A DNA stretch of 40,820 nucleotides from Flavobacteriales bacterium (GTDB lineage Bacteria > Bacteroidota > Bacteroidia > Flavobacteriales > UBA1820). Under the pieces are notes generated by a model. That model had not been told where the DNA came from and did not search any database. It saw only the letters and a list, made by a program, of their open reading frames with translations. The position numbers and the translations under genes are program-made. The stretch lies in NCBI GenBank assembly GCA_017620815.1, contig JAGAUI010000006.1, positions 1 to 40,820 of the forward strand. Direction: 5' to 3'. This document shows, piece after piece, positions 5,508 through 20,892 of this stretch. Numbering within the stretch: position 1 is the first letter of the stretch; every line of letters begins with the position of its first letter.

Positions 5508-5969
5508 ATGAAAAAATTATTCTTAATGGTAGTAGTGACATTACTTACTATGTCATATGCATCTGCACAATGGAAAACCTACTATGTCGTAGAGCAGGTA
5601 GGACAAGAAAATCCATATATGAGTTATTTTAAAATAGACTGGAACAATAAGTTCTTTTTCCTAGATTCAGATAGTGAAGATGAAACAAAGTGTCCTATGA
5701 AAAACTTCAAGGAAAGCGGTAATAAAAAGACATTTGATGTGTATTATACTCCATCTGTAGGTGGAGGTAAGCACTGTAGTGTGGTCTTTGAAACCGATGC
5801 CGATGGCAAAATGACCCTTACACAGATTCTCTCTGGTGGAAAGCAGACTTATATCATCTCAGATAAAAAACCTCTTAAAAGCGCAGCTGGAGATAGCAAA
5901 GGAGACTCCAAAGGGTTCTTGAAAGGTGGAGTTGATAAGGTAAAAGGTATCTTCAAAAAGAAAAACTAG
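5508..5969 (+). CDS. Small secreted protein of unknown function
   Basis: I do not recognise a family. The 153-residue product starts with a clear Sec signal peptide (MKKLFLMVVV... to ASAQ, cleavage likely after Ala20). The mature part begins with aromatic beta-strand-like sequence (WKTYYVVEQ, YFKIDWNNKFFF), contains two Cys (in the KCPMK and KHCSV contexts) that could form a disulfide, and ends in a Lys/Gly/Asp-rich low-complexity tail (about 120-153, KGGVDKVKGIFKKKN). The tail is not a recognisable type IX secretion C-terminal domain, so a periplasmic location is more likely. It is monocistronic, with its own promoter and terminator. Confidence 0.8.
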   Translation: MKKLFLMVVVTLLTMSYASAQWKTYYVVEQVGQENPYMSYFKIDWNNKFFFLDSDSEDETKCPMKNFKESGNKKTFDVYYTPSVGGGKHCSVVFETDADGKMTLTQILSGGKQTYIISDKKPLKSAAGDSKGDSKGFLKGGVDKVKGIFKKKN

Positions 5970-6022
5970 AAACATGTAGTGGAATTGACATGTGAGGCAG
6001 AGTCTTGTAACACTCTGATGAT

Positions 6023-6056
6023 AAAAAAAGAGCAGACGACGTCTGCTCTTTTTTAT
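6023..6056. terminator. Bidirectional terminator
   Basis: Perfect 14-bp arms 6024-6037 and 6041-6054 have A-rich and T-rich outer ends. The hairpin serves both the secreted protein gene (plus) and the convergent zinc-finger membrane protein gene (minus). Confidence 0.9.
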
Positions 6057-6078
6057 TTTAAATGTGTATGGATTGTGT

Positions 6079-7737
6079 TTATATCAAGTCCTGGATTAAA
6101 CCTATTATAAGTATTATAATCAACGCTATGACATATGTAACCAAAAATATAGCCCCAGCAGCTAGAACAAATACTCCAGTGTATGATAAAAGCAATGCTA
6201 TCATAGAGTAGAGTATAAAGTTCCATATGCCTAGGATAAAGCCTCTTATAAATCTCATCGTAGATGAAGCTACCCTGTATGTAAATGCAGGTATTTTTGA
6301 TTTGCGGGATTTTATACCCTTATACATCACAAAGGCAAGAGATATAGCCATTATGAATTTTGGAGTTATGTCCCATTTGTCCATCAGCCAAGTACTCCAT
6401 GGTGCAAAGAAATCATAGTGATAGTACAGCGTGTAGAATATGGGGGCAGAAAGCATAGTACATATCACTACCGATAGATTGATGCCAAATTTGGCAGAGG
6501 TGGACATTCTCTCTTCTAGTTGTTGCTGCATATAGGCTTCGTTTGAGCCAGCTTGAGGATATTTGTTTACCTTTTGCAGTACTGCCCATGCCCGCCCATA
6601 CTGACGTTTTTTGCAGTGAAGGTTTACACGTGTTTTAAGGTCGTCCATCTTTTGGGACATGGGAGATGTAATCGTAAATAGTTTCCAGTTATCACCTACT
6701 AACATACAGCTAAACCTATTCCCGTCCACTTCATATATAACGGTTTTGGCACTACATTCACACACCTCAACATCACTGAAACATACAGCAGTATGAGATG
6801 AACGTTCTATATAAACGGGTAGTTTTGAAAGCATGACTCCTACTACGGGGCGTGAATTAAGAGCTGCTTGTTTAAAATCATCTCTGTCAATGTGTATCCT
6901 CTCCATTACCTTCCATGGAGTATCCTCGTCAATCAATTTGCACATCTTTCCTATTTCGTCCTGTGAGAATAGGGAAGGGAACAGATAATCTATATAATTT
7001 TTTGTGTATTGTATAAGGTGTAACTGCCAGTATTTTAATACCTTTTTGTCGCCTCCGCAGCTGCTGCATGTAACTTTACCTGTCGTGCCACAAGTCTTAC
7101 ATGGTATTTCTTTATAAGAGAAGGATTCTATTTTTCCAGTACCATTGCAATTGTAGCACGTTCTTTTATCTTCTCGTGTTTTTCTTACATGGCGTAATAC
7201 GTTTCTTTTCTCATTATAGTCCCATACCAATTCATTGTCATAATATTCTTTGGTTTCGGTTTTATATCCTCGACCATAGCATACGGGACAATCTTCTTTT
7301 ATGGTAATCTTTTGTTCTATCACTCCTTTACCACCACATTCTGGACAAATGACTTTACCTGTGGCATTGCAGGTAGGGCAGTCTGTGATGTAATCTGTGC
7401 CAGAAATGTTATAGAAAGTGTCTTTGGATGTGAAATCATTGGGAAAAGGGACTATCTTCCAACGGTCTATATCAGACTCTTGGCAGGCAGTAGAGCGTGA
7501 GGGTTTCCTGCCCTTGATACGGTCATAGGTGTTTTTAAGCAGACGCTTGTCATATTGCGTTTTAAGGATGCCCCTATATAACGGAGAGTCCCATACTTCT
7601 ATCACTTTAAGGGAGTCACCCAGGTCATCACGATTGTAACCTTCTACCGATGCTCCCCACTGATTGAACAACTGACGGAATCTTTTTTCTTCCTCTTGGG
7701 TGAAAGAAATTTTCTGTGGGTTTTTATAGTTTGCCAT
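6079..7737 (-). CDS. DnaJ-type zinc-finger membrane protein without a J domain
   Basis: A 552-residue protein with six CxxC modules at residues 120, 131, 150, 194, 213 and 224. Most are followed by xGxG (CPECGGKG, CPVCYGRG, CYNCNGTG), as in the cysteine-rich domain of DnaJ. There is no HPD-bearing J domain. The N-terminal 110 residues are charged. The middle (about 235-410) is soluble with extra Cys residues. The C-terminus has about four hydrophobic helices (roughly 420-440, 461-475, 498-520, 523-550). The zinc domain probably binds unfolded protein or acts in thiol exchange, anchored to the membrane. It starts 11 bp after the preceding membrane protein gene, so the two form an operon. The exact role is unknown. 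Confidence 0.82.
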   Translation of the reverse strand: MANYKNPQKISFTQEEEKRFRQLFNQWGASVEGYNRDDLGDSLKVIEVWDSPLYRGILKTQYDKRLLKNTYDRIKGRKPSRSTACQESDIDRWKIVPFPNDFTSKDTFYNISGTDYITDCPTCNATGKVICPECGGKGVIEQKITIKEDCPVCYGRGYKTETKEYYDNELVWDYNEKRNVLRHVRKTREDKRTCYNCNGTGKIESFSYKEIPCKTCGTTGKVTCSSCGGDKKVLKYWQLHLIQYTKNYIDYLFPSLFSQDEIGKMCKLIDEDTPWKVMERIHIDRDDFKQAALNSRPVVGVMLSKLPVYIERSSHTAVCFSDVEVCECSAKTVIYEVDGNRFSCMLVGDNWKLFTITSPMSQKMDDLKTRVNLHCKKRQYGRAWAVLQKVNKYPQAGSNEAYMQQQLEERMSTSAKFGINLSVVICTMLSAPIFYTLYYHYDFFAPWSTWLMDKWDITPKFIMAISLAFVMYKGIKSRKSKIPAFTYRVASSTMRFIRGFILGIWNFILYSMIALLLSYTGVFVLAAGAIFLVTYVIALIIILIIGLIQDLI

Positions 7738-7748
7738 ATTTCTTCCTC

Positions 7749-8216
7749 CTATTTTTTAAATGCTACTGCTTCATTATCAAAATCTAGTGGTCGTATGGAA
7801 CTGAATCCTAGATGTATGGATATTATAATTGCGATAATCACTAGAATAGAAAGTATCACAGGTATAGCAAGTGCCAGACGGTCTGTCTGGGTAATTTCTT
7901 CTTCCCACTGTTTGTCATCTAATGCCTTAAAACAATATGATATTACTGTACGACCTTTGAATTCGTCTTTTGTTTTGCCTTCTGCGAGGTCTTTTTTGTA
8001 TAAAATTTCGGCACATTGTACTGTCTTTTCTTTGGCTGCTTTTATGCTGGAAGGATAGTATGCTGTATATGCAGCAGAAAAAACTTTTTGGTAATCGGTT
8101 GCAGTGGTGGTGCTTTCTCTATCTTCTAGGTCGTTGGGGCGGGAGGTATGGTAATGTATTAAGAAGCCCAGGGCTCCAAATAATAGCCCGTATTTTAATA
8201 AAGTTAGGATTTTCAT
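7749..8216 (-). CDS. Two-helix membrane protein, partner of the zinc-finger protein
   Basis: A 155-residue protein with no family I recognise. A hydrophobic N-terminal helix (ILTLLKYGLLFGALGFLI, about 3-20) is followed by a charged, probably extracytoplasmic, domain of some 90 residues with two Cys, then a second helix (about 113-137, LALAIPVILSILVIIAIII) and a short tail. It is the first gene of a two-gene minus-strand operon, driven by a TATATTTG box at 8265-8272. The tight linkage suggests it works with the J-less DnaJ-type zinc-finger protein in the same membrane. Confidence 0.75.
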   Translation of the reverse strand: MKILTLLKYGLLFGALGFLIHYHTSRPNDLEDRESTTTATDYQKVFSAAYTAYYPSSIKAAKEKTVQCAEILYKKDLAEGKTKDEFKGRTVISYCFKALDDKQWEEEITQTDRLALAIPVILSILVIIAIIISIHLGFSSIRPLDFDNEAVAFKK

Positions 8217-8264
8217 ATCGGGAGAAAATTAAGTTAAATGTTATGAGTTATATAATGGTTGAGG

Positions 8265-8295
8265 CAAATATATAAAACATTTATGGTCTTGACAA
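8265..8295 (-). promoter_or_regulatory. Bacteroidota promoter, membrane/zinc-finger operon
   Basis: On the minus strand the -7 box TATATTTG is at 8265-8272, with a TTG at 8293-8295 20 bp upstream of it. It diverges from the secA promoter. Confidence 0.55.
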
Positions 8296-8356
8296 TCATC
8301 TATATAAAGAATATAGTTTTAGGTTTATCTTTTTATGTTTTTGTGATATAAATGCG

Positions 8357-8364
8357 TATATTTG
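8357..8364 (+). promoter_or_regulatory. Bacteroidota -7 box, secA
   Basis: TATATTTG matches TAnnTTTG and lies 56 bp before the secA ATG. The nearest TTTG (8340-8343) is only 13 bp upstream, so the -33 element is uncertain. Confidence 0.5.
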
Positions 8365-8419
8365 CAATTCTGAAAAACCCAAATCAATATAAATACACAA
8401 AACACATTTTTTACTACAA

Positions 8420-11400
8420 ATGAGCTTTATAGAAAAGATAATGAAGGTATTCTTTGGTGATAAATCTGCCAAAGACATCAAGGCTATACGTCCATACATA
8501 GACCGTGCTCTAGAATATGGGGAAAGCATTAAAGATATATCCAACGATGAACTCCGCAGTAAGACGCTAGAATTCCGCCGCCGCATAAAAGAAGCGACAG
8601 AAAGTCTTGACGCTGAAATAGCATCCCTACAATCCCAAGCCGACGTTGAAAATCAAAAGGCGGTAGGAGATACATCTGGTGATGTGGCAGGAGAGCAAGA
8701 TGAAAAGACACGCCTTAAAAATCTAGAAAATATATTCTCTCGCATAGACGAACTTAAAAAAGAGGTTCATCGCGTTACAGAAGACACTCTTAAAGAAATC
8801 CTGCCAGAGGCATTTGCGGTGGTTAAGGAAACGGCTCGTCGTTTTGCTACAAACGAAAGCATAGAAGTAACGGCTACTCCTTTTGACCGTGAATTATCGG
8901 CTACGCACCCAAATGTAACACTGGATGGGGATAAGGCTCTGTGGGCTACTTCGTGGGATGCTGCTGGTACAGCGGTGAGATGGGACATGGTGCATTATGA
9001 TGTACAGCTCATAGGTGGTGTGGTTCTTCACGAAGGTAAAATAGCCGAAATGGCAACAGGAGAGGGTAAGACACTGGTGGCAACACTACCTATATACCTT
9101 AACGCTCTACCCGGTAAAGGTGTACACGTGGTAACGGTGAACAACTATCTGGCACGTCGTGACGCTGCGTGGATGGGGCCTTTGTTCCAGTTCCATGGTC
9201 TTTCGGTGGATTGTATAGATAATACCACTCCCAATAGCCCAGAACGTAAAAAAGCATATCTAGCAGATATCACCTATGGTACCAATTCTGAATTTGGTTT
9301 TGACTACTTGAGAGATAATGGTGCTCGTGATGCCGAAGAACTAGTACAGCGTGAGCATAACTTTGCTATAGTGGACGAGGTGGATAGCGTCCTTATAGAC
9401 GATGCTCGTACACCTCTTATCATATCTGGTGAGATGGTAGGTGGTGATAACAGCGAGGAGTTTGTAGCACTACGTCCACAGGTAGAACTTATAGTAGCAG
9501 AACAGAAACGATTTATACAGAAGGAATTTGTAGAGGCAAAACGTATGATAGCCGAAGGTGATACATCGGCCAGTGATGATGGAGAAGGAGGTGGAGCAAA
9601 ACTGTATAGAGTATTCCGTGGTGCTCCCAAAACAACTGCCCTTATAAAGTATCTGAGTGAAGGAAATAATAAACTCCTGCTTCAAAACGTAGAAGCCAAA
9701 TACATGGAACTTGGTAACCGTCTTATGCCAGCGATTGACAAAGACCTTTTCTTTACCATTGACGAGCGTATAAATAGCATACAGCTTACAGACCGTGGTG
9801 TGGCATATCTTTCCAAATACAATAATGACGAACGTTACTTCATACTGCCAGACCTAGGTGTAGATATAGAAGCTATAAATAACGACGAGAGCTTGAGCCC
9901 AGAAGAAAAAGATGAGGCTCGTTCTGCTCTATATCGTGATTTCAGTGTCAAGAGCCAACGCCTGCATATACTCACACAGATGCTTAAGGCATATATGCTC
10001 TTTGAGAAAGACGTGCAGTATGTCATCATGGATAACGAAGTAAAAATAGTAGATGAGCAGACAGGTCGTATAATGGAAGGCCGTCGTTATTCAGATGGAT
10101 TGCACCAAGCACTGGAAGCCAAAGAAAATGTCAAAATAGAAAAAGCTACACAGACATACGCTACTATCACACTCCAGAACTATTTCCGTATGTATAAAAA
10201 ATTGGCTGGTATGACAGGTACTGCTATGACCGAAGCCAATGAGTTCTGGGAAATATATAAACTGGATGTGGTAGAAATCCCTACCAATCGTCCTATAGCC
10301 CGTAATGACCAAGCCGATATGCTCTTCCGTACCAAACGTGAAAAGTATAATGCGATAGAACGAGAGATAGCACGTCTGCATGAAGAGGGACGCCCTGTAC
10401 TGGTGGGTACGACATCGGTAGAGGTGAGTGAGCTTATATCTCGTCGTTTGAGTATGAGAAAGATAGAGCATAACGTCCTCAATGCCAAACTCCATATGCA
10501 GGAGGCAGAAATAGTAGCTCGTGCAGGTAAACCGGGTGTTGTTACCATCGCTACCAATATGGCCGGTCGTGGTACCGACATCAAACTTACACAGGAAGTA
10601 AAAGATAAAGGAGGTCTGGCTATCATAGGTACAGAACGTCACGATTCACGTCGTGTGGACCGTCAGTTGAGAGGTCGTGCAGGACGTCAGGGAGACCCGG
10701 GTACTTCACAGTTCTATATTTCGCTGGAAGATAACCTGATGCGTCTTTTTGCTTCGGAACGTCTAGGTAAGATAATGGCGTTCCTAGGTATTAAAGAAGG
10801 CGATGTGATACAGGATAAACGTATCACCAATATGGTGGAAAAAGCCCAGAAACGTGTAGAAGAAAATCATTTTGGTTCTCGTAAACATACGTTGGAATAT
10901 GACAACGTGATGAACTCACAACGTCAAGTGGTATATGCACGTCGTCGTCATGCTCTCTTTGGTGACCGCTTATCGGTGGATATTTCAAACATGATGAGCG
11001 ATGCTTGCTACGTCATAGTAAACGAAGAGAAAAACGGAGGTTCTTATGAGGAGTTCCGCCGCAGGGTATTGGAAGCCTTTGCAGTTGAGTGTCCTATAAC
11101 ACAGGAAGAATTTGCCGAAGGCAGTGTGGAAAACCTTTCTGCTCGTATGGTAGATGCTATGTTTGTCATTCTTAAAGAAAAGATGGAACGCATAGTAAAT
11201 GATGTGTATCCGTTCATAAAGAATGTGTATGAGGCTCCAAATAATCATTATAGAATGATAGGTGTTCCTTTTTCTGATGGTATCAAGACCCTGCATATGG
11301 GTGTTGACCTAGAAAAAGCATATAATACAGCTGGACATCAGGTGGTTTCAGACCTTCAGAAGAATATAGTCCTTTCTATCACAGACGATGCTTGGAAACA

Positions 11401-11842
11401 GCATTTGAGAGATATGGATGATTTGCGTGAAACTGTGCGTAACGCTGTATATGAACAGAAAGACCCTGTCCTTATTTATAAGTTTGAAGCATTTGAGCTT
11501 TTCCAAGCTATGATAAACAAGGTAAACCTTTCTGTAATATCATTCCTGATGAAAGGTAAACTCCCTATCCAAGACCCTTCCCGTGTAGAGCAGGTGCGTA
11601 AGGCAAAACGTGCAGTAGGGCGTGAAGGCCGTGGAGTAGAAGAAGGGGCACAACAAGGTATGCCAAATGTCCCACAGGAGATAGAACGTCCTCGTACATA
11701 TGTGCGTGAAAGTCCCAAATACGGTCGCAATGACCGCGTGAAAGTACAAAATATAAGTACAGGAGAGGTAAAAGAGATGAAATATAAACAAGCCGAACCA
11801 CTAGTAGAAGCAGGTACTTGGGTGGTGACAGGTAAAGCCTAG
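8420..11842 (+). CDS. secA: Preprotein translocase ATPase SecA
   Basis: A 1140-residue SecA, the motor that drives unfolded preproteins through SecYEG. Visible motifs are Walker A ATGEGKT in nucleotide-binding domain 1, the DEVDSVLIDDARTPLIISG Walker B/link region, the GTERHDSRRVDRQLRGRAGRQGDPG helicase motif in domain 2, and ITDDAWKQHLRDMD in the helical scaffold. It is longer than E. coli SecA (901 aa), as usual for Bacteroidota, with insertions near residues 55-90 and 340-370. The C-terminus lacks the zinc-binding SEC-C cysteines; instead it ends in YGRNDRVKVQNISTGEVKE, the tail seen in many Bacteroidota. A very strong hairpin follows the stop. Confidence 0.98.
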   Translation: MSFIEKIMKVFFGDKSAKDIKAIRPYIDRALEYGESIKDISNDELRSKTLEFRRRIKEATESLDAEIASLQSQADVENQKAVGDTSGDVAGEQDEKTRLKNLENIFSRIDELKKEVHRVTEDTLKEILPEAFAVVKETARRFATNESIEVTATPFDRELSATHPNVTLDGDKALWATSWDAAGTAVRWDMVHYDVQLIGGVVLHEGKIAEMATGEGKTLVATLPIYLNALPGKGVHVVTVNNYLARRDAAWMGPLFQFHGLSVDCIDNTTPNSPERKKAYLADITYGTNSEFGFDYLRDNGARDAEELVQREHNFAIVDEVDSVLIDDARTPLIISGEMVGGDNSEEFVALRPQVELIVAEQKRFIQKEFVEAKRMIAEGDTSASDDGEGGGAKLYRVFRGAPKTTALIKYLSEGNNKLLLQNVEAKYMELGNRLMPAIDKDLFFTIDERINSIQLTDRGVAYLSKYNNDERYFILPDLGVDIEAINNDESLSPEEKDEARSALYRDFSVKSQRLHILTQMLKAYMLFEKDVQYVIMDNEVKIVDEQTGRIMEGRRYSDGLHQALEAKENVKIEKATQTYATITLQNYFRMYKKLAGMTGTAMTEANEFWEIYKLDVVEIPTNRPIARNDQADMLFRTKREKYNAIEREIARLHEEGRPVLVGTTSVEVSELISRRLSMRKIEHNVLNAKLHMQEAEIVARAGKPGVVTIATNMAGRGTDIKLTQEVKDKGGLAIIGTERHDSRRVDRQLRGRAGRQGDPGTSQFYISLEDNLMRLFASERLGKIMAFLGIKEGDVIQDKRITNMVEKAQKRVEENHFGSRKHTLEYDNVMNSQRQVVYARRRHALFGDRLSVDISNMMSDACYVIVNEEKNGGSYEEFRRRVLEAFAVECPITQEEFAEGSVENLSARMVDAMFVILKEKMERIVNDVYPFIKNVYEAPNNHYRMIGVPFSDGIKTLHMGVDLEKAYNTAGHQVVSDLQKNIVLSITDDAWKQHLRDMDDLRETVRNAVYEQKDPVLIYKFEAFELFQAMINKVNLSVISFLMKGKLPIQDPSRVEQVRKAKRAVGREGRGVEEGAQQGMPNVPQEIERPRTYVRESPKYGRNDRVKVQNISTGEVKEMKYKQAEPLVEAGTWVVTGKA

Positions 11843-11865
11843 ATATATGAACAGACTAGGCGGAA

Positions 11866-11919
11866 AAACCACAGCCCCGCTATGCGATAAGTATATCGCT
11901 AGCGGGGCTGTGGTTTCTT
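11866..11919 (+). terminator. Very strong hairpin after secA
   Basis: Perfect 17-bp arms pair 11866-11882 with 11900-11916. After a single bulged T the stem continues for 6 bp (11884-11889 with 11894-11899) to an AGTA loop. TTTCTT at its 3' end and AAAAA before it fit a terminator. It lies inside the longest open frame of the next gene, which argues that this gene starts after it. Confidence 0.8.
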
Positions 11920-11924
11920 CACAG

Positions 11925-12233
11925 ATGAGGGTGGTGGAGAAGATGATACGGTATTATTGTGCTGCTCACCATGACGGTAGAGATAAAAAAGATGGTCTAT
12001 GTGGCGAGTGTGGTGAGCTTTTGCAGTATGCTCGTCATAGACTGAATAAATGCCCTTATGGTGAATCAAAACCAAACTGTTCGCAATGTAAGATACATTG
12101 TTATAGTAAGGATAAAAGAGAGAAAATAAAAAATGTGATGCGTTATTCGGGACCTAGAATGATTTTCTATGCACCCGGGGATATGTTTGTCTATCTCGCT
12201 AGGAAGATTTCATATGCACTTAAAAAGAAATAA
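11925..12233 (+). CDS. YgbA-family protein (nitrous-oxide-stimulated promoter family)
   Basis: About 102 residues of small Cys-rich protein matching the YgbA_NO family: an N-terminal MIRYYCAAHH segment, a CGECGELLQYARHRLNKCPYG core, then CSQCKIHCY and the conserved PRMIFYAPGDM stretch. E. coli ygbA is a NsrR target linked to recovery from nitrosative stress; the biochemical activity is not established. The Cys pattern suggests metal or Fe-S binding. The frame is open from 11847, but that stretch contains the 51-nt secA hairpin and adds unconserved residues, so I choose the ATG at 11925. It lies in tandem after secA and converges on the exopolysaccharide operon. Confidence 0.85.
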   Translation: MRVVEKMIRYYCAAHHDGRDKKDGLCGECGELLQYARHRLNKCPYGESKPNCSQCKIHCYSKDKREKIKNVMRYSGPRMIFYAPGDMFVYLARKISYALKKK

Positions 12234-12245
12234 AAAACGGTATAT

Positions 12246-12280
12246 GTAAAAATAGGCATCCGCAGGGTGCCTATTTTTAC
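12246..12280. terminator. Bidirectional terminator, YgbA gene / exopolysaccharide operon
   Basis: Arms 12246-12261 and 12265-12280 pair with one G-T, around GCA. The outer parts are A-rich on the left and T-rich on the right, fitting termination in both directions between convergent genes. Confidence 0.88.
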
Positions 12281-12298
12281 ATTTGATATTTTTGGGTT

Positions 12299-14206
12299 TT
12301 ATAGATATGCGAGATATCTGGTAGAGGATAGCTGTTTTATCTTTAATTCCAACGAATTTTTATTGCTATCCATAACTATAACCTTTTTAGGAACAAAACC
12401 CGCTGCACAATCTATCCCAAACACATATGATGTATTGCTCGCATTGATGTTCCCATTTACCTGTATGAGTATTTTGTTGTCTTTTTCTTTCACACAATAA
12501 TCGTGTCGTAACTCTCTTCTGTCAAGCCAAAAGTCTCCATAGTCTTCAAAATTATAAAGTCCTATGGTATTTAAATCCAGACTTTCTATGAGCATCTTCT
12601 GTGCCAACATCTTCCATTCACGATTTGGGTGGATAAGCAGTACAGATGGAGCGTAGTTGCCTTTCAATTTGTTGAGAACACCTAGCCACATAGTAGGCTT
12701 TTCACTCCAGTTATTCTCATTCATAGGGTCACTATTTATCACATCAGAAAAATGAAGAGGTATTTGCAGTACGCTTGAGAGTTCGTTTGCCCACTCATTG
12801 CCTATGCGGTCCATATATGGGAATTCTGAAAGTACATCACCAGCACTGTAACACGATGAAAACGCATATTTTGCATCTTGCAGTGTGATGGGGAAATTCT
12901 TGTTCATAGTAAGGTGTCCTGAACGGAACGAACGTACCTTGTTCCCTAGGTCTTCTTCTATTATCTGTCTAGAAAGAGCTATCTCTGCCCAAGTGGAACC
13001 GCCTGTGGTGATACCAGTATTGACGTCATGTGTAGCACGATAGTCTTCTTTGGATACAGGTGTGATAGGGAAACGTTCTGTCTTGGAAAAATCGGGGAAG
13101 TGGCCTATGGAATGACTGCCAACGGTATGCCCATCTTGCAGTAGTTGTTTTGACTGAGCGATGGACACATCATCATAAAAAGCCGATAGATATGGCGAGT
13201 CCCTATAATAATGTACGGTTAGGAAGTAATGAGCTTTTAGTTTCAGGCTCTTTTCATATGTGGACATATGATGCATCTGGTCATAAGCTGTACGAGAATC
13301 ACAGTCGTGGGTAGGGATAAGTACAGTCTGGTATCCTGCAGGTATGGTGAATTTCCATACAGATGTTCCCTGTGTTTTGGCAAATGTAGAGCGTAAAAAT
13401 AGGGCATATACGTCTGCCGAAGGTTCAAAATCATTGCTGTATGACCTCGAAGCCGAAAAATCTTTGTTGAGTTGTGAACGCTGTATGACGTCTCTCCATA
13501 GCACACCAAATGTGTAAGCTGTGCCACGTCCTGTTTTCTTGCGTATAACGGCAGCTTCGCCAGTGTTATAGCTAGCCATCGTCTCTCCCGATGTTACAGT
13601 ATAGGCATAGCTTTTGATGGAGTATTCACCGCTTATCTCTTTGGCGTTACCTATGGATACTTTTTTTTCTTCGGGTTGGTCGGCATATTCCAGTTCCTTG
13701 TCGTTATTATAACTATCATTCCAAGAGTATGATGTGCGGGTTTTGTTATATGAACTGCCACTCACTCCAAATAATGATGCTGCTCCCTGTGGCACTTCTA
13801 CCAATGCTGGAGAGATGATACACCCACCTTCATTTACCCATTGGGATAATTTTTCCCATTCCTGTTTGTTAAATGTAGAGGATTTGATGGGGGAGGATAG
13901 TATTATCATACATGCTTTTTTAAGAGCTGTAGATAGGTCTGTCGTTGTAGATGTGGGAAGGCCAGCTACCTCTACAATGTATTCTGCTGAATACAGGTTA
14001 CGGCCAGTCTCGCTACTACTCTCGGTATCACCACTACGGCGATTGATGTCAAGAACCACACATTGGGCGTGAGGAGTGAATACATCATCTGTCGGGGTAG
14101 GCATAGGTGGTTCATCGGGAGTAGGAGTAGTGTCTCCCTTCCCACATGAGACCAATGCGGTTATAACAACCCCACATAGAAAAATTTTTATATCATTCCA
14201 ATGCAT
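12299..14206 (-). CDS. Lipoprotein polysaccharide deacetylase (NodB-like fold), exopolysaccharide operon
   Basis: A 635-residue lipoprotein: signal peptide with lipobox LVSC (Cys21), then a Pro/Thr-rich linker (about 25-43). An N-terminal domain (about 45-250) resembles a GATase-like fold (LSQWVNEGGCII). A carbohydrate-esterase-4-like domain runs from about 290 to 560. Its metal and catalytic motifs look modified but present: THDCD at 299-303, the SHSIGH pair H365/H369, R428 in FRSGH, and LIHPN with H526. A short beta-rich tail follows. CE4 enzymes remove N- or O-acetyl groups from polymers. As the last gene of the operon, it likely modifies the nascent polymer in the periplasm or on the cell surface. 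Activity on N-acetyl groups is inference. Confidence 0.82.
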   Translation of the reverse strand: MHWNDIKIFLCGVVITALVSCGKGDTTPTPDEPPMPTPTDDVFTPHAQCVVLDINRRSGDTESSSETGRNLYSAEYIVEVAGLPTSTTTDLSTALKKACMIILSSPIKSSTFNKQEWEKLSQWVNEGGCIISPALVEVPQGAASLFGVSGSSYNKTRTSYSWNDSYNNDKELEYADQPEEKKVSIGNAKEISGEYSIKSYAYTVTSGETMASYNTGEAAVIRKKTGRGTAYTFGVLWRDVIQRSQLNKDFSASRSYSNDFEPSADVYALFLRSTFAKTQGTSVWKFTIPAGYQTVLIPTHDCDSRTAYDQMHHMSTYEKSLKLKAHYFLTVHYYRDSPYLSAFYDDVSIAQSKQLLQDGHTVGSHSIGHFPDFSKTERFPITPVSKEDYRATHDVNTGITTGGSTWAEIALSRQIIEEDLGNKVRSFRSGHLTMNKNFPITLQDAKYAFSSCYSAGDVLSEFPYMDRIGNEWANELSSVLQIPLHFSDVINSDPMNENNWSEKPTMWLGVLNKLKGNYAPSVLLIHPNREWKMLAQKMLIESLDLNTIGLYNFEDYGDFWLDRRELRHDYCVKEKDNKILIQVNGNINASNTSYVFGIDCAAGFVPKKVIVMDSNKNSLELKIKQLSSTRYLAYL

Positions 14207-14226: not shown

Positions 14227-15504
14227 TTACAGACGTTCTGTAGCTATTTCTTTATCCAGAACGCCCTTGACATCATAGAATACACCACCTTCTTTACGCA
14301 AACTACCCATATCTATGTCATTAAAACAAGAGTGTTTAACGCAATATACCACAGCGTCATATTTCCCACGTTCTAAATCTTTGGCTTCGGTGCTTATATT
14401 TACACCATATTCCATTTTGGCCATTTCTTTGCTCGCCCAAGGGTCATATATAGTTATGTCGTCTGTATATGCTTTAAGGGTGTTGAATATATCCACTACT
14501 TTGGTATTGCGTATGTCTGGACAGTTTTCCTTAAATGTGAAACCTAGCAACAGGATTTTGGAATGGAAAGCCGAAATATCGTGCAGGTTCATATAACGTA
14601 CTACGCGTTCGGCTATATAGCTACCCATAGCGTCGTTTATACGACGAGCCTCTATCATTATACGAGGTATAACACCACGAGATGTGGCACGTTGTATAAG
14701 ATAGTAAGGGTCAACGCTTATACAGTGTCCGCCCACCAGTCCGGGGCTGAAATTAAGGAGGTTCCATTTGGTGCCAGCAGCTTTAAGAACATCTGTAGTG
14801 TCTATACCCAATGCGTTGAATATCACAGCTATTTCATTCATAAAGGCAATGTTTACATCTCGCTGTGAGTTTTCCAGTATTTTGGCTGCTTCGGCAACTT
14901 TAATGCTGGGAGCTAGATGTGTTCCATTCTCCAATACCGAATTATACAAATCATCTATCACACGAGCGACCTCTGGTGTAGAACCAGATGTTATTTTACG
15001 TATTTTTTCTACCGTGTGTTCACGGTCACCCGGATTGATGCGTTCTGGAGAATACCCTAGATAAAAATCCTCATTTAGTTTAAGACCAGATATCTGCTCG
15101 ATGATAGGGGCACAAGTCTCTTCGGTAACGCCAGGATATACAGTAGATTCATAAATGACTATATCTCCTTTCTTTATCACTTTACCTACACTCTCACTTG
15201 CCATTTTAAGAGGCAATAATTCGGGGTTGTGGAAGTCATCTACTGGTGTAGGTATAGCTACTACATATACGTTACAATCCTTTATATCTTTCAAATCACA
15301 GGTGCATTTCATCCCATTGGCCAATGCAGTAGATAGAGCATCGGGCATTACTTCTCCCGTAGCATCTATACCTGCATTTATTTCATCTACACGATTTTTT
15401 TTGATGTCATATCCTATCACTTGATACTTTCTGGAAAACAGGCAAGCAAGTGGAAAACCCACATAACCCAATCCTATAACGGCTATCTTAAACTCTTTGT
15501 TCAT
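14227..15504 (-). CDS. Nucleotide-sugar 6-dehydrogenase (TviB/WbpO type)
   Basis: A 425-residue UDP-glucose/GDP-mannose dehydrogenase family enzyme. It has the Rossmann motif GLGYVG (11-16), ESTVYPG (119-125), SPERINPGD (152-160), the central helix with KILENSQRDVNIA, and the catalytic Cys261 in GGHCISVDPYYL. The SPERINPG form and GHCISVDPYYL point to the group that oxidises UDP-N-acetylhexosamines (TviB, WbpO, CapL) rather than UDP-glucose. It uses NAD+ to form the C6 carboxylate in two steps. It would supply a uronate sugar nucleotide to the adjacent synthase. It lies fifth in the exopolysaccharide operon, 51 bp after the glycosyltransferase. Exact substrate is not certain. Confidence 0.9.
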   Translation of the reverse strand: MNKEFKIAVIGLGYVGFPLACLFSRKYQVIGYDIKKNRVDEINAGIDATGEVMPDALSTALANGMKCTCDLKDIKDCNVYVVAIPTPVDDFHNPELLPLKMASESVGKVIKKGDIVIYESTVYPGVTEETCAPIIEQISGLKLNEDFYLGYSPERINPGDREHTVEKIRKITSGSTPEVARVIDDLYNSVLENGTHLAPSIKVAEAAKILENSQRDVNIAFMNEIAVIFNALGIDTTDVLKAAGTKWNLLNFSPGLVGGHCISVDPYYLIQRATSRGVIPRIMIEARRINDAMGSYIAERVVRYMNLHDISAFHSKILLLGFTFKENCPDIRNTKVVDIFNTLKAYTDDITIYDPWASKEMAKMEYGVNISTEAKDLERGKYDAVVYCVKHSCFNDIDMGSLRKEGGVFYDVKGVLDKEIATERL

Positions 15505-15555: not shown

Positions 15556-16878
15556 CTAAATTCCTTCTACCTGTGCTATATCTGATGTCTTACGAGGGTT
15601 CCATGGGTCTTTATAAGATGAGAAGAAGAACAGTTCCTTGGTGTGTGCCAAAAGACGTGTAAGACGCAGGAAGTATCCCGTATAGAACGTATTGAGGAAC
15701 AGGTAAGGGAGTAGATTTTTTTCTTCATTGGCACGTTCAGAGACCATCATTATAACACCAAATGCTATAAGAGAGAACACATAGCGTATCATATATCCCA
15801 CCACAAATACTTCCAATAGGCGGTCTGTATGGGTAAACATAAGTGTGATTATGTAGAAGAACCACGCATAATTGAAAACACAGTCATATAGCAGGTTCTC
15901 TGTGTTTGAAATGAAATTAAGGAATGAGAAATGTTTGTGTGGTAACAATATATCCATATGTTTACGCAAACGGAACCTTATAAGGCTTTTACTCCAACGC
16001 TGACGTTGTTTAAACAGTACGTGCCATTTGGTAGGGACGTTTGTCATACAGATGGCATCGTGAGCAAAATATACCTTGTGCCCTGCCTTACGTATCTTCT
16101 GTGTGATGTCTCCGTCCAATCCTGGTCCTATATCCCACATGCCTATCTGGTGTAAAACCTTACGGTCAAATGCTCCAAATGCCCCCGATATGATATGATA
16201 AATACCCAACGTATTGGTAACTATACGACCTACCTGTATGGTTTTGAGGTATTCTATGGCCTGCATAGAGGTACATACCGTCTCGCCAGCGTTGCGTACC
16301 TTCACACAACCGCCCACAGCCTTGATACGTGAGTCGTAATAGAACGGTATGAGTATCTTTTCTAGTGCATCTCTATCCAGTGAAGAGTCTGCGTCCAGAT
16401 GAACCACATATTTGCCTCGTGCATAATGAATGCCATAATTGGCTGCCGAAGCCTTCCCTCCTCTTACACCCAATCGTAGGTATTCGTCTATATATCCCGC
16501 CTTTTTCAAATCACCACATATAAGCGGAGTCTCGTCATCACTGCCGTCATCTACTATAATTATTTCATAGTTGCGATAAGTCTGTTCGTTTAATGAACGC
16601 ACCAGTTTATAGATGTTTTTGCCTTCGTTTTTACCGGGGGCAAGTATCGTTATAAGAGGATTTTCTATGTAGAGTTTCATGCGGGCTACGGCTTGTTTCT
16701 TCTCACGAGAGCGACGTGTGAACAGGTGGTAGGTCGTGATTATAAACTCCAATAGATAATAACGAGGAAACTCCACTATAAACAAAAACCAATACGTACC
16801 CACCAATGCTCCCAGAGATATATTGTTGGTAAAGCAGGCACGTATGTTGTCTATTATGTCAAAAACAAAGTCAAACAT
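15556..16878 (-). CDS. Processive family-2 glycosyltransferase (polysaccharide synthase)
   Basis: A 440-residue inner-membrane GT2. N-terminal helices (about 20-55) precede a cytoplasmic GT-A domain with VDDGSDD (D110/D111), LDADS (D162/D164), the acceptor-site GLDGD (D255/D257) and the processivity motif QRQRW (291-295). C-terminal helices follow (about 331-380 and nearby). This is the architecture of PgaC, Alg8 and hyaluronan synthases, which polymerise a sugar nucleotide and extrude the chain through their own membrane channel. The adjacent dehydrogenase suggests a uronate substrate, and the HlyD- and TolC-like genes upstream would provide the exit path. There is no PilZ domain in it. Polymer identity is inference. 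Confidence 0.92.
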   Translation of the reverse strand: MFDFVFDIIDNIRACFTNNISLGALVGTYWFLFIVEFPRYYLLEFIITTYHLFTRRSREKKQAVARMKLYIENPLITILAPGKNEGKNIYKLVRSLNEQTYRNYEIIIVDDGSDDETPLICGDLKKAGYIDEYLRLGVRGGKASAANYGIHYARGKYVVHLDADSSLDRDALEKILIPFYYDSRIKAVGGCVKVRNAGETVCTSMQAIEYLKTIQVGRIVTNTLGIYHIISGAFGAFDRKVLHQIGMWDIGPGLDGDITQKIRKAGHKVYFAHDAICMTNVPTKWHVLFKQRQRWSKSLIRFRLRKHMDILLPHKHFSFLNFISNTENLLYDCVFNYAWFFYIITLMFTHTDRLLEVFVVGYMIRYVFSLIAFGVIMMVSERANEEKNLLPYLFLNTFYTGYFLRLTRLLAHTKELFFFSSYKDPWNPRKTSDIAQVEGI

Positions 16879-16896
16879 ATATCTATTATATGTGTA

Positions 16897-18294
16897 CTAT
16901 GCGTTGATGAGTGGTTTTGTGGTCTTTGTCTGTTTAATGAAGGAATTGATACGTTCCTTATCTTTCAAATGGAAATAAGTAATATCTGTGATATGTATAT
17001 TGCCGTATTTTATCTCTATAGATGATATTATGTTTTCTATCTCTTCCTTGATATGCAGCAATGTTTCTTCATTGGTGTCTTTTGATATCTTGCTGGCCAT
17101 ATAGATGTATGGCATATCATAAGAGAAGTTGTTATAGTGGTAACGATGTTGTAAATCTTCCAATATATCCATTGCAATGTCTTTTCTTATTCCATCACCT
17201 TCTATCTTGAATCGAGAGATGAAAATATCCTTATTATTGCCTCGGGAATATGACAATAGTTGTATCTGTGATAGGAATGAAGAGAATTTGGAGTAGCCTT
17301 TCCATATATCACGGTTGATGGCCAGTGTAGCTTCGTTGGAAGATATGGCGGCTATACCATCTGGCGTGAAACTATAGCGGTATATATCCATAGGTGTAAG
17401 GTCTGCCGGAGTCATAGTCTTGTTGCAATGTGAGCATATGACCTTCATCTGTGTGTTGATAAAGGTATGAGAACACTTCTTGCATGTGTGGATATTGGCA
17501 GGGCGGTCATAGTCCACACCTATATGTCGCAATATATGATGACATTTAGGGCAGCGGTATTCTCCGTCATAGGCATAAGTGGATTCGGGAGAGATATTTG
17601 CACAGCGGAAGTGGTGTATGACAGATTCCTGCTTTATGTGTGAAGAATGACATTTGGGACAGCACTCCATATACAGCAGGTGTGAAGAACCACATTCTGG
17701 GCACAGGTGAACTCTCTCTATAAAATCTGTTTTCTCTATATACTCCAAGTCTTCCAATATGTGTATGTAACGTGCAAATTGCTCCATCACGTTCATAGGT
17801 GTATTGCCACTTATCGCCTGATAGATAGCCGAAAAACCTTCGCTGTATCCTGGTATAAGACAGGAGGTAAAGGTAATCATATTACGAGAGAGTGCATATT
17901 TACATAGTTTGAGAAATAGAATGATAGGGTTACTGGATACGTCTGCAGCCTCATAGAATTCCATACGAGACAGGTTATAGTATATTCCCTCTATGCGTTC
18001 GCTTATCTGTGGGTCGTTAATGTCGGTCACAAAACCGTCTATCACCGCTGCAAATGATAAAGAGCGGTCTTTAAGTCTCGATGATATGAATCGAGGTTTC
18101 ATACGACATTTTTTGCTTACAAATGGCGATGTTTTCTGTAATATAAGGGCTATTTCGGTAGGAGAGATATTCTTGTATTCTATATATACAGCATCAAAAT
18201 CTGTTGCACTTATTTCTTCTATTTCATCTACCGCAACTACGCAGTCCAGGTATAGAACCTTATAACCAGATGAAAGTGTCTTTATCTTATACAT
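16897..18294 (-). CDS. TackOD1-type multi-zinc-ribbon protein, candidate regulator of the exopolysaccharide synthase
   Basis: A 465-residue cytoplasmic protein with no membrane segment. Residues 1-110 look like a degenerate receiver-type alpha/beta domain. Residues about 195-295 form a Cys-rich block: C198/C201, C212/C215, C231 in HHFRC, C248/C251, C271/C274 and C287/C290, with the stretch RHIGVDYDRP between. This pattern closely matches my knowledge of TackOD1, a metal-binding output domain first described in Thaumarchaeota and often attached to signalling domains. The C-terminal 160 residues are alpha/beta, possibly a highly degenerate GGDEF-like fold without the GGDEF motif. Its place between the HlyD-like and synthase genes, 14 and 18 bp away, suggests it controls or assembles the synthase. 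Function is not established. Confidence 0.75.
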   Translation of the reverse strand: MYKIKTLSSGYKVLYLDCVVAVDEIEEISATDFDAVYIEYKNISPTEIALILQKTSPFVSKKCRMKPRFISSRLKDRSLSFAAVIDGFVTDINDPQISERIEGIYYNLSRMEFYEAADVSSNPIILFLKLCKYALSRNMITFTSCLIPGYSEGFSAIYQAISGNTPMNVMEQFARYIHILEDLEYIEKTDFIERVHLCPECGSSHLLYMECCPKCHSSHIKQESVIHHFRCANISPESTYAYDGEYRCPKCHHILRHIGVDYDRPANIHTCKKCSHTFINTQMKVICSHCNKTMTPADLTPMDIYRYSFTPDGIAAISSNEATLAINRDIWKGYSKFSSFLSQIQLLSYSRGNNKDIFISRFKIEGDGIRKDIAMDILEDLQHRYHYNNFSYDMPYIYMASKISKDTNEETLLHIKEEIENIISSIEIKYGNIHITDITYFHLKDKERINSFIKQTKTTKPLINA

Positions 18295-18308: not shown

Positions 18309-19469
18309 TTACTTGAATAAATGTCTAAGGCTGTCTGGTACATACAGACCCTTAGGAGTTTTGAACATAATATATTGGTCTGGTTTGACATCTGGGTAAT
18401 CCATGTTGTTTATGCGTATGGTTACCGGCAAATCATTTACCACACTCCAGAATGGAATCTTCTGTCCGTTATCTACGCGTAACACCGCTATAGCAGCTAT
18501 ATGTTCTTTGGAAAGAGTGTTGCGTATGGCATCGGGTATTTCTTCTGTACGGGCACCCATAGACACCACTGTTGCAATGTAACTAATATCCTTGTTTACA
18601 ATTATCTCTGCTTTATATCCTCGGTTGATGACTTTGGCCTTGCTGGCGGGAATGTAAGCCATTATATACACGTTGTCTTTTTCAAAATCCAGACTCTGTG
18701 TCTCTATGATATCTTCACCCCTTAATATCAGTGAGTTTTCAGAAATCCAGTTTTTGGTAACTATGCTAGAGTCTGATGCTATGTAGTAGTTTACAAGATT
18801 CAAATCCTCCATCAATCGTTTGTTCCTAACGTTGTGGAATGCCAGTCCGTCTTTGTTTACAACTTCCATACGAGCCACATCTACCATTATTTCATTCATC
18901 GCTTCTTTCATCACAGATAGTTTGCGTCTCTGTGAGGCGAGTTCTTCTCGTGTCTCTTTGTAATCGCGTTCCAGATTCATCTTGTGGACATTGTCGCTCA
19001 ATCCAAAACGTATATTGTGGTCTTCTATATCTATCTGTCGTTTAATCTCTCGCAACCGTACCTCCATCACAGAAAGATTTTGACTTGCCAGTTTGTATTC
19101 CAGATCCATCTCACGGGCTTTGGCTATGATGGCATTGTCTGATGAGAACGTACTCAGATTTTGCAGGTCGTTTATGCGTACATATGAGTATATGGTGTCT
19201 CCCGGTACTATCAGTTCGCCCATGTGTTTATGAATGTCGTGAACAAAAAGGTCTTGTGAGGCACGCATACGGTTATTGTGTACCACTACATATCCGTCAA
19301 AATCTGAATATAATATGTTGCGTACTATGTAAAGTGCCAGCATCACTATTATGAAGATAAATATCCCCATAAAGATAAACTGCTGTTTGTTCCTTTTCTT
19401 CTTGCGATGAGTGATAATCTCTTCTATAGATGCTTGCTCTTCCTCTGTGGTAAAATGGAAATTTTTCAT
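18309..19469 (-). CDS. HlyD-like membrane-fusion/adaptor protein of the exopolysaccharide operon
   Basis: A 386-residue protein with a basic cytoplasmic N-terminus (about 1-29), one transmembrane helix (30-50, FIFMGIFIFIIVMLALYIV) and a periplasmic part. The latter has a half-lipoyl/barrel segment (about 55-105), a long helical coiled-coil hairpin (about 110-200, rich in Glu, Arg, Lys, Leu) and a C-terminal beta-barrel region (about 255-345). This is the HlyD/EmrA adaptor architecture, also used by Alg44 in alginate export, but it lacks the PilZ domain of Alg44. It would bridge the inner-membrane synthase and the TolC-like outer-membrane protein encoded 16 bp upstream. Confidence 0.88.
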   Translation of the reverse strand: MKNFHFTTEEEQASIEEIITHRKKKRNKQQFIFMGIFIFIIVMLALYIVRNILYSDFDGYVVVHNNRMRASQDLFVHDIHKHMGELIVPGDTIYSYVRINDLQNLSTFSSDNAIIAKAREMDLEYKLASQNLSVMEVRLREIKRQIDIEDHNIRFGLSDNVHKMNLERDYKETREELASQRRKLSVMKEAMNEIMVDVARMEVVNKDGLAFHNVRNKRLMEDLNLVNYYIASDSSIVTKNWISENSLILRGEDIIETQSLDFEKDNVYIMAYIPASKAKVINRGYKAEIIVNKDISYIATVVSMGARTEEIPDAIRNTLSKEHIAAIAVLRVDNGQKIPFWSVVNDLPVTIRINNMDYPDVKPDQYIMFKTPKGLYVPDSLRHLFK

Positions 19470-19485
19470 GATAAAAGGTCGATGC

Positions 19486-20892
19486 TTAGTGTTCTATTTT
19501 ACAAAAATCCAATATACTTTTATGATATAAAAACGATTGTAATTCTATTATAAGACAATCTCTCTCATAGAGGTAGGATAGGTAGTTCTCCCAACATTCC
19601 AGATAATGATTGTATTCCTTTATGCGTGATAGGAAATTATATTGACCTATATGACCAGAATAGTTGCCTTTACGCATCTCTATGTAATTTTTCATAGTCA
19701 GTATGCGGGAAATCTCACTCCTAAGCCCTCTATTGGCACGTTCTATATCTTCCAGTATAGAGTTTATCTCTACATTGATGCTATATATGTGAGCGTCTTT
19801 CTTGTCTAGCAGCTCTATACGTTCTGCTTGTATAGCATTGCGTTCTTTGCGAGATTGGGAGGATATAGGTATCTGGAACGAAAGTCCTGCATCTACATTG
19901 GAATAATTTGGCATAGACTTTCTCGTGTAATGAGAATATCTCACAAATGGCGAGACGTTTACATCTCTCCAGTATGAGGTGCTTTTCTCCTTTTCTCTCA
20001 ATAGCCTAGCCTGTAAGTCTATCTTGATAATCTCGCTTTCATTCTCTCTTATGTGATTCATAAGCCTCGTAGTATCTATCTCTATTATGGCGGCTGTAGG
20101 GTGTGATAATTGGCTGGCTGTGGGGTAGTCGCGTGGAATGGCAGATAAACGGCGTGAGGCAACAGCGGCATCATCCATTATGGCTAGTAATTCGTCTGTG
20201 CTTATGCTTCGGTCACTTACTAGGTATGATTGTGCTTCCTGTAAGAGATGCAGATTATTTATTCTCAATTGCAGTACACCCGATAGCAGACTATCATATT
20301 CCTCGCGTAATTGTTTCTTCTGCTCTTCTATGAGTAGTTTTGTCTGCTCGTGATTAAATGAGATACGTTCTAACTCACCTTGTAGTTCTATGTAGCGTGT
20401 ACGGCTGGCTCGTGAGATAAGTGAACTGTTGAGAAAGTTCCATCTCAACTCGGCTTGAATTTTATTCTTGTAACCAGATATAGCATCGTCCTGGTCGGGG
20501 TCTGGGGCTGAACCGTCATTTATGCGGTAATATGTGTTGCCAGATATTACAAGCCCCGTCTGGGCTCTCATGGCTTTTATCTGTGCCTGTACTTTTTTCT
20601 GTGATAGGGAATCCTGTCTGTGTGCAAAGACCTCGCCCGCATAGCTCGCCTCGTCTTCCTGTAAGGCTAATGTATATGGTGTTTCTTTTGCCTTAAAGAT
20701 AAGCGAGTCCATAATGGCAAAATGCTCTTCAAACGCCTTGTAGAGTTCACTTTCGCTCTTCTGTGCATACAGTGAGTTCATAGCCATAAATGCCGTAAAG
20801 ACAAGTGTCGTATAACGAGCTATGGCTGTATAACCATTATAAGAGATAAAACGGTCTATATATTTAATATAAGATTTAATGTCTTTTTTCAC
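19486..20892 (-). CDS. TolC-like outer-membrane factor, first gene of exopolysaccharide operon
   Basis: A 468-residue protein with a long N-terminal region ending in a signal peptide (cleavage probably after Ala43 in LYAQ). Two related halves follow, rich in long amphipathic helices (about 180-235 and 280-440), with segments such as FVRYSHYTRKSMPN and GLSFQIPISSQSRKERNA that are typical beta-hairpin/helix junctions of outer-membrane efflux proteins. It is near the family size (TolC has 493 residues). It is predicted to trimerise into an outer-membrane and periplasmic duct. Its position upstream of an HlyD-like adaptor and a polysaccharide synthase points to polymer export rather than drug efflux; no inner-membrane efflux pump is encoded nearby. 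Confidence 0.85.
   Translation of the reverse strand: MKKDIKSYIKYIDRFISYNGYTAIARYTTLVFTAFMAMNSLYAQKSESELYKAFEEHFAIMDSLIFKAKETPYTLALQEDEASYAGEVFAHRQDSLSQKKVQAQIKAMRAQTGLVISGNTYYRINDGSAPDPDQDDAISGYKNKIQAELRWNFLNSSLISRASRTRYIELQGELERISFNHEQTKLLIEEQKKQLREEYDSLLSGVLQLRINNLHLLQEAQSYLVSDRSISTDELLAIMDDAAVASRRLSAIPRDYPTASQLSHPTAAIIEIDTTRLMNHIRENESEIIKIDLQARLLREKEKSTSYWRDVNVSPFVRYSHYTRKSMPNYSNVDAGLSFQIPISSQSRKERNAIQAERIELLDKKDAHIYSINVEINSILEDIERANRGLRSEISRILTMKNYIEMRKGNYSGHIGQYNFLSRIKEYNHYLECWENYLSYLYERDCLIIELQSFLYHKSILDFCKIEH

Follow-up and report, generated by a model that had tools for sequence, protein, structure and literature searches.

A TackOD1 protein as a candidate subunit for control or assembly of a GT2-HlyD polysaccharide synthase in a Flavobacteriales bacterium

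The alginate synthase Alg44-Alg8 combines a GT2 polymerase, an HlyD-type adaptor, a nucleotide-sugar dehydrogenase, and an outer-membrane exit in one operon. Alg44 carries a cytosolic PilZ receptor for c-di-GMP (PMC8461298). PelD and BcsE, which are degenerate GGDEF proteins, bind the same nucleotide through an RxxD motif in the arrangement of the c-di-GMP I-site (PMC8461298, PMC7439463). The rhizobial mixed-linkage beta-glucan synthase BgsA is a GT2 enzyme with post-translational control that does not involve PilZ, and its control domain is its own C-terminal tail, which binds c-di-GMP (PMC5567048). A survey of synthase-dependent systems makes no mention of TackOD1 (PMC7112194), a domain (PF18551, arCOG06883) that a 2018 paper presented as an output domain of obscure function (PMC5847659). 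It was described from archaea, where it occurs in response regulators and in type IV pilus loci (PMC4858521).

The current study concerns a TackOD1 gene in a 1.73-Mb genome of a Flavobacteriales bacterium (GenBank assembly accession number GCA_017620815.1). The window, i.e., the whole stretch of DNA that was analysed, comprises 40,820 nucleotides of contig JAGAUI010000006.1. A preliminary description had pointed to a TackOD1-like zinc-ribbon protein in a position where PilZ-type control of a polysaccharide synthase would be expected, and the gene does indeed stand between those of an HlyD-like protein and a GT2 synthase.

A TackOD1 gene in a six-gene synthase operon

The TackOD1 protein (465 amino acids, ATG start, 16897..18294, minus strand) matches PF18551 with 155.4 bits and an E value of 1.6e-45 (Pfam; gathering cut-off 32), which bears out its assignment as a zinc-ribbon protein of this kind, and it is the only copy found by a whole-genome profile search (158 bits). 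It is cytosolic, with a hydropathy maximum of 1.15 and no TM segment. The TackOD1 region, as delimited by Pfam and the family alignment, covers residues 119-311 (17362..17940, minus strand; Pfam match 171-308), and the cysteine cluster within it lies at residues 198-290 (17425..17703, minus strand) and reads CPEC, CPKC, HHFRC, CPKC, CKKC, and CSHC, with RHIGVDYDRP in between, just as the preliminary description had placed it. The CxxC pairs start at residues 198, 212, 248, 271, and 287, HHFRC occupies 227-231 (H228-F-R-C231), and RHIGVDYDRP occupies 256-265. The protein thus has all 11 Cys reported as conserved in TackOD1, namely, five CxxC pairs and one HxxC (PMC5847659), and an alignment of 28 relatives across phyla shows little or no variation in the five pairs, in H(H/C)FxC, or in DYD(K/R)P. 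TackOD1 would be expected to bind zinc. In one relative (L061, 1498-2064), the TackOD1 protein lacks the second and fourth CxxC pairs and the cassette is intact; full metal loading is therefore not essential.

The TackOD1 gene belongs to a minus-strand operon of six genes with gaps of 14-51 bases, which encode, in this order, a TolC-like protein, an HlyD-like protein, TackOD1, the GT2 synthase, a nucleotide-sugar dehydrogenase, and a deacetylase-like lipoprotein. The GT2 protein (440 amino acids, 15556..16878, minus strand; PF00535, E value of 1.8e-27) carries VDDGSDD, HLDADS, and QRQRW, i.e., the DDG, DAD, and QxxRW motifs of processive membrane synthases. Its nearest NCBIfam model is PgaC, and its score of 159.9 bits lies well below the equivalog cut-off of 422.3 for the PNAG synthase PgaC/IcaA (TIGR03937). 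The HlyD-like membrane-fusion protein (18309..19469, minus strand), whose family is kept in the cassettes, matches PF13437 slightly below the cut-off (E value of 6e-4); it has one TM segment at residues 27-57, a cytosolic tail of only about 26 amino acids, and no PilZ domain. The TolC-like outer-membrane factor (GTG start, 19486..20892, minus strand) had no match in a Pfam scan, and its homologues in relatives are OEP-positive. For both proteins, relatives contain homologues with HlyD or OEP matches above threshold, which indicates that both the periplasmic adaptor and the outer-membrane exit are present in this system. The dehydrogenase (14227..15504, minus strand) scores above the cut-off of TIGR03026 (375 bits) and is nearest to the UDP-GlcNAc 6-dehydrogenase TviB, below the cut-off of that model (NF011729, 481.8 bits; cut-off 592); a uronic or amino-uronic acid is therefore a likely constituent of the polymer. 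The last gene (12299..14206, minus strand) encodes a lipoprotein-like protein with weak similarity to polysaccharide deacetylases (PF01522, E value of 5e-4, below the cut-off). A terminator-like hairpin with an 18-bp stem (12244..12282) separates the end of the operon from a convergent open reading frame (11847-12233) that encodes a YgbA-family protein of the nitrous-oxide-stimulated promoter family (PF11756, E value of 4e-33).

The same six genes are found with about 93% DNA identity in the nearest relative (L002), a metagenome-assembled Flavobacteriales genome from water-buffalo caecum. Comparison of the TackOD1 gene with its 94%-identical counterpart in L002 yielded a dN/dS of 0.14 for the gene and 0.09 for the TackOD1 core, and the gene is under purifying selection; the C-terminal domain offered only about nine changes for such an estimate. 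Synonymous divergence amounted to 0.04 in the C-terminal third (16900-17361; 3.5 synonymous changes) and to 0.27-0.40 elsewhere in the gene, and the low value may stem from a recent recombination event or from constraint at the DNA level.

TackOD1 neighbourhoods across phyla and mobile elements

Loci were collected from samples of Bacteroidota genomes, from a plasmid collection (tblastn), and from viral contigs, and TackOD1 was found in Bacteroidota, Alphaproteobacteria, Gammaproteobacteria, and one phage contig. Few Bacteroidota carry the domain: over-cut-off matches, the window genome included, occurred in 10 of 296 genomes of the phylum sample, 8 of 396 of the order sample, and 20 of 295 of the class sample. 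Sub-threshold matches (L012-L014, L023-L027, and L063-L067) were excluded as generic zinc-ribbon hits. A census of neighbouring genes revealed that the same-strand gene directly downstream of TackOD1 matches the GT2 family profile in every one of 45 loci and that an HlyD gene is located within three genes in 41 of them, the four exceptions lying at contig or record ends. Palleronia provides a 46th locus, which was missed by the census motif and in which an annotated glycosyltransferase adjoins TackOD1. The window GT2 protein, used as a query, matched no further gene in the first 18 loci. Kinship lowers the number of independent events, but a gene order shared by such distant groups is not due to chance. 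The proposal that TackOD1 is a partner of the polysaccharide synthase is thus strongly supported by the 45 adjoining GT2 genes, and a switching function would be a further step.

The cassette is also carried by mobile elements. A 29-kb mobilizable plasmid of Aeromonas caviae (NZ_AP024951; L069/L085) harbors genes for TackOD1 with a degenerate GGDEF domain, GT2, TolC, and HlyD in a cassette that spans the plasmid origin, with TolC and HlyD directly across it completing the set; the presence of the cassette on such a small mobilizable plasmid shows that the system is transferable. On the viral contig L079 (IMGVR_UViG_3300003324_001329), a complete TackOD1-GT2-HlyD cassette (5943-11980) also contains genes for a glycosidase-like protein and an NAD-dependent epimerase, and neighbouring genes have a common N-terminal M..RRL..FA motif. 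The contig carries a portal-protein gene (phrog_16240, E value of 4e-23), and a polysaccharide synthase carried by a phage would be unusual. Further scans of viral contigs, for which a TackOD1 protein from Bacteroidota and the GT2 protein of the window served as queries, gave no matches, nor did a search of the phage database with the TackOD1 protein of L079.

The TolC-like proteins of some relatives (L033, 12038-14164; L034, 5540-7669; L040, 5918-7960) have a glycosidase-like C-terminal part, with a GH18 match in L034 (E value of 4e-5). In many cassettes, exit channel and polymer-processing domain thus appear to be one protein; this part is absent from the TolC-like protein of the window.

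Flanking domains and their possible inputs

The N-terminal domain (residues 1-118; 17941..18294, minus strand) is a genuine domain, conserved across the family. The window N-terminus matches the family N-domain (hhalign, 92%, P of 5e-7), P67 and D86 are invariant in the family alignment, and in some relatives the domain is encoded by a free-standing gene of about 110 codons, whose products the family profile matches with E values of 1e-18 to 1e-23. The preliminary description had likened the first 110 residues to a degenerate receiver, a similarity that our comparisons failed to show. Pfam recorded no PF00072 match in the window N-terminus or in any of 27 family N-domains, the N-domain profile retrieved no receiver from the PDB sequences (its sole hits were de novo TIM barrels, which were considered spurious), and hhalign comparisons with 7 and with 29 receivers, set against reversed and unrelated controls, did not support a similarity (0.5% against the 29), the register of the alignments being suggestive and no more. 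A receiver nature of the domain could therefore not be demonstrated. An AF2 model of the full window protein, built from three sequences only, had a pLDDT of 36.6 overall and of 22-32 in the N-terminal region.

Genuine receivers do occur elsewhere in the family. Five relatives (L033, L034, L035, L037, and L038) begin with one (PF00072, E values of 4e-25 to 1e-21 in the four scanned), followed by TackOD1 and, in three of the four, by a weak GGDEF match. These loci have a separate open reading frame of about 110 residues upstream, whose product is a homologue of the N-terminal domain found in the fused proteins; the receiver is thus an additional domain, separate from the N-terminal one. In L029-L032 and L039, the cassette is preceded on its own strand by a phosphorelay (PAS/GAF histidine kinase, receiver, Hpt, and LytTR, as far as scanned), and in Roseibium and Palleronia kinases and Hpt proteins surround the REC-TackOD1 gene. 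The four receivers of the window genome are all encoded elsewhere.

The C-terminal domain (residues 312-465; 16900..17361, minus strand) stands where relatives have their degenerate GGDEF domain. A profile built from 22 C-domains of Bacteroidota, the window excluded, retrieved GGDEF proteins from the PDB at 7e-8 to 9e-8, and inclusion of proteobacterial members improved the match to 1.8e-13, which identifies the family domain as derived from GGDEF. All members examined have a degenerate active-site motif, the phage member (EAGDEFY) being closest to the canonical form. In Aeromonas, Plesiomonas, and Photobacterium the GGDEF motif is lost and RDTD is kept five residues upstream, i.e., in the I-site arrangement, and an RxxD motif is also kept in a few Bacteroidota (L036, L045, L051, and L062). 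The window protein reads RYHY...NNF...SYDMPY at this position and has neither a GG(D/E)EF motif nor an RxxD I-site. The earlier proposal of a GGDEF-like C-terminus without catalytic motif thus holds for the family, and the window's own C-terminus gave no significant match to GGDEF or to the family C-domain in hmmsearch, hhalign, and Pfam, so that no direct similarity was detectable. In structure prediction, the low-confidence AF2 model (pLDDT 59) shows an a-b-a-b-b-a-b-a order compatible with the GGDEF fold, and a Foldseek search with it returned ferredoxin-like folds, with GGDEF absent among the top 50 hits. By position, the window C-terminus is likely homologous to the GGDEF-derived domain of the family. 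Five loci of one genus of the same order (L040-L044) encode short TackOD1 proteins of 316-319 amino acids that lack the C-terminal domain, in cassettes that are otherwise intact; the domain is hence not needed everywhere.

Profile searches of the window genome, which is 99.5% complete, detected no GGDEF and no PilZ domain. Over-threshold GGDEF matches were also absent from 33 of 34 TackOD1-positive Bacteroidota relatives; in four genomes a sub-threshold match proved to be the C-terminus of the TackOD1 protein itself, and G730 (contamination 3%) has two over-threshold matches. Since the genome lacks GGDEF and PilZ and the protein lacks an I-site, control by c-di-GMP is unlikely in the window organism, and the nucleotide binding put forward for this C-terminus finds little support; such control is plausible in the gammaproteobacterial relatives.

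Control or assembly, and the known synthases

On the basis of gene order and domain composition, we consider it reasonably probable that TackOD1 is a cytosolic control or assembly subunit of the GT2-HlyD polysaccharide synthase, which here would replace PilZ and operate without c-di-GMP. The machine would consist of the GT2 polymerase, the HlyD-type periplasmic adaptor, and the TolC-like outer-membrane exit, with TackOD1 as a dedicated cytosolic subunit. TackOD1 itself would be the module that touches the polymerase, and its flanking domains would set its state. The predicted inputs vary by lineage and are a phosphorelay acting on a receiver, c-di-GMP read by a degenerate GGDEF domain (in gammaproteobacteria), or neither. 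In the window organism, where receiver and c-di-GMP inputs are absent, TackOD1 probably serves to gate or assemble the GT2-HlyD complex by way of its own N-terminal domain and some further partner.

As far as the window protein goes, what looks like a switch could equally be a scaffold. A constitutive assembly factor without any switching, comparable to BcsQ and BcsR in cellulose secretion, is a serious alternative because every recognisable input has been lost: the protein has no phospho-receiver and no I-site, and the genome has no GGDEF domain. The intact cassettes of L040-L044 without a C-domain fit this as well, but the functional-looking receivers and I-sites of relatives and the conservation of the N-domain across the family do not, and we regard pure scaffolding as rather unlikely. 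Zinc ribbons often bind nucleic acids, and TackOD1 might therefore, as an output domain, control how the operon is expressed. Archaeal REC-wHTH-TackOD1 proteins (PMC5847659) and weak matches to nucleic-acid-binding ribbons, none of them significant, would agree with such a role. The order of TackOD1 and GT2, however, is invariant over phyla, including a phage and a small mobilizable plasmid, and the phosphorelay cassettes already contain a LytTR DNA-binding regulator, which makes this explanation improbable. Even less credence is given to the original proposal that the window C-terminal domain still binds a cyclic dinucleotide and thereby switches the synthase: GGDEF homology at the family level and the precedent of PelD and BcsE (PMC8461298, PMC7439463) speak for it, but the I-site is missing, the C-terminus has no detectable GGDEF similarity, and neither GGDEF nor PilZ is encoded in the nearly complete genome. 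A role confined to synthases is contradicted by the archaeal members, which are found at type IV pilus loci (PMC4858521) or in other surroundings; TackOD1 is therefore not only a synthase module.

By tying them to one class of polysaccharide synthase, the strict gene order provides bacterial TackOD1 members with a concrete and testable role, and it would offer a route of exopolysaccharide control in Bacteroidota, almost all examined carriers of which lack a recognisable diguanylate cyclase. In the literature searched (subscription texts and preprints were outside its scope), the name TackOD1 was not found beyond PMC5847659, and searches under alternative names of the cassette were without result; within these sources, its association with GT2-HlyD synthases appears to be unreported.

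The window protein shares with the described TackOD1 domain the profile match and the five CxxC pairs plus HxxC, and REC-TackOD1 proteins are likewise found among its relatives. The archaeal members come from response regulators and pilus loci, whereas the bacterial ones studied here are all linked to GT2-HlyD synthases. The operon resembles that of alginate in its polymerase, adaptor, dehydrogenase, and exit. Alg44 has its PilZ receptor in the cytosol, whereas the HlyD protein of the window ends in a short tail and is accompanied by a separate TackOD1 protein in a genome without PilZ; the PilZ domain that marks an Alg44/PilZ-controlled synthase is thus missing, and TackOD1 would hold the position that in the alginate machine belongs to the PilZ half of Alg44. 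PelD is similar as a degenerate GGDEF protein in control of a polysaccharide synthase, and gammaproteobacterial TackOD1 proteins, too, have kept RxxD and lost GGDEF. It differs by its GAF domain, its TM helices, and the lack of a zinc ribbon, and the window protein differs from it by the lack of an I-site. BcsE, a degenerate REC-GGDEF tandem, is a soluble multidomain regulator of a GT2 synthase with the degenerate GGDEF placed behind other domains. It has no TackOD1, acts together with BcsQ, BcsR, and BcsF, and binds c-di-GMP; the comparison is one of architecture, and homology is not claimed. BgsA has in common a GT2 synthase whose control does not depend on PilZ, but its control domain is part of the GT2 protein, whereas the window encodes a separate protein. 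Taken together, we tentatively suggest, at somewhat less than even chances, that TackOD1 represents a third kind of synthase control subunit beside PilZ and degenerate-GGDEF receptors, which would couple a phosphorelay or c-di-GMP to GT2 depending on the lineage, work in Bacteroidota without c-di-GMP signalling, and travel with the synthase on plasmids and phage. The family provides natural examples of this machine both with c-di-GMP and without it, which lend themselves to comparison.
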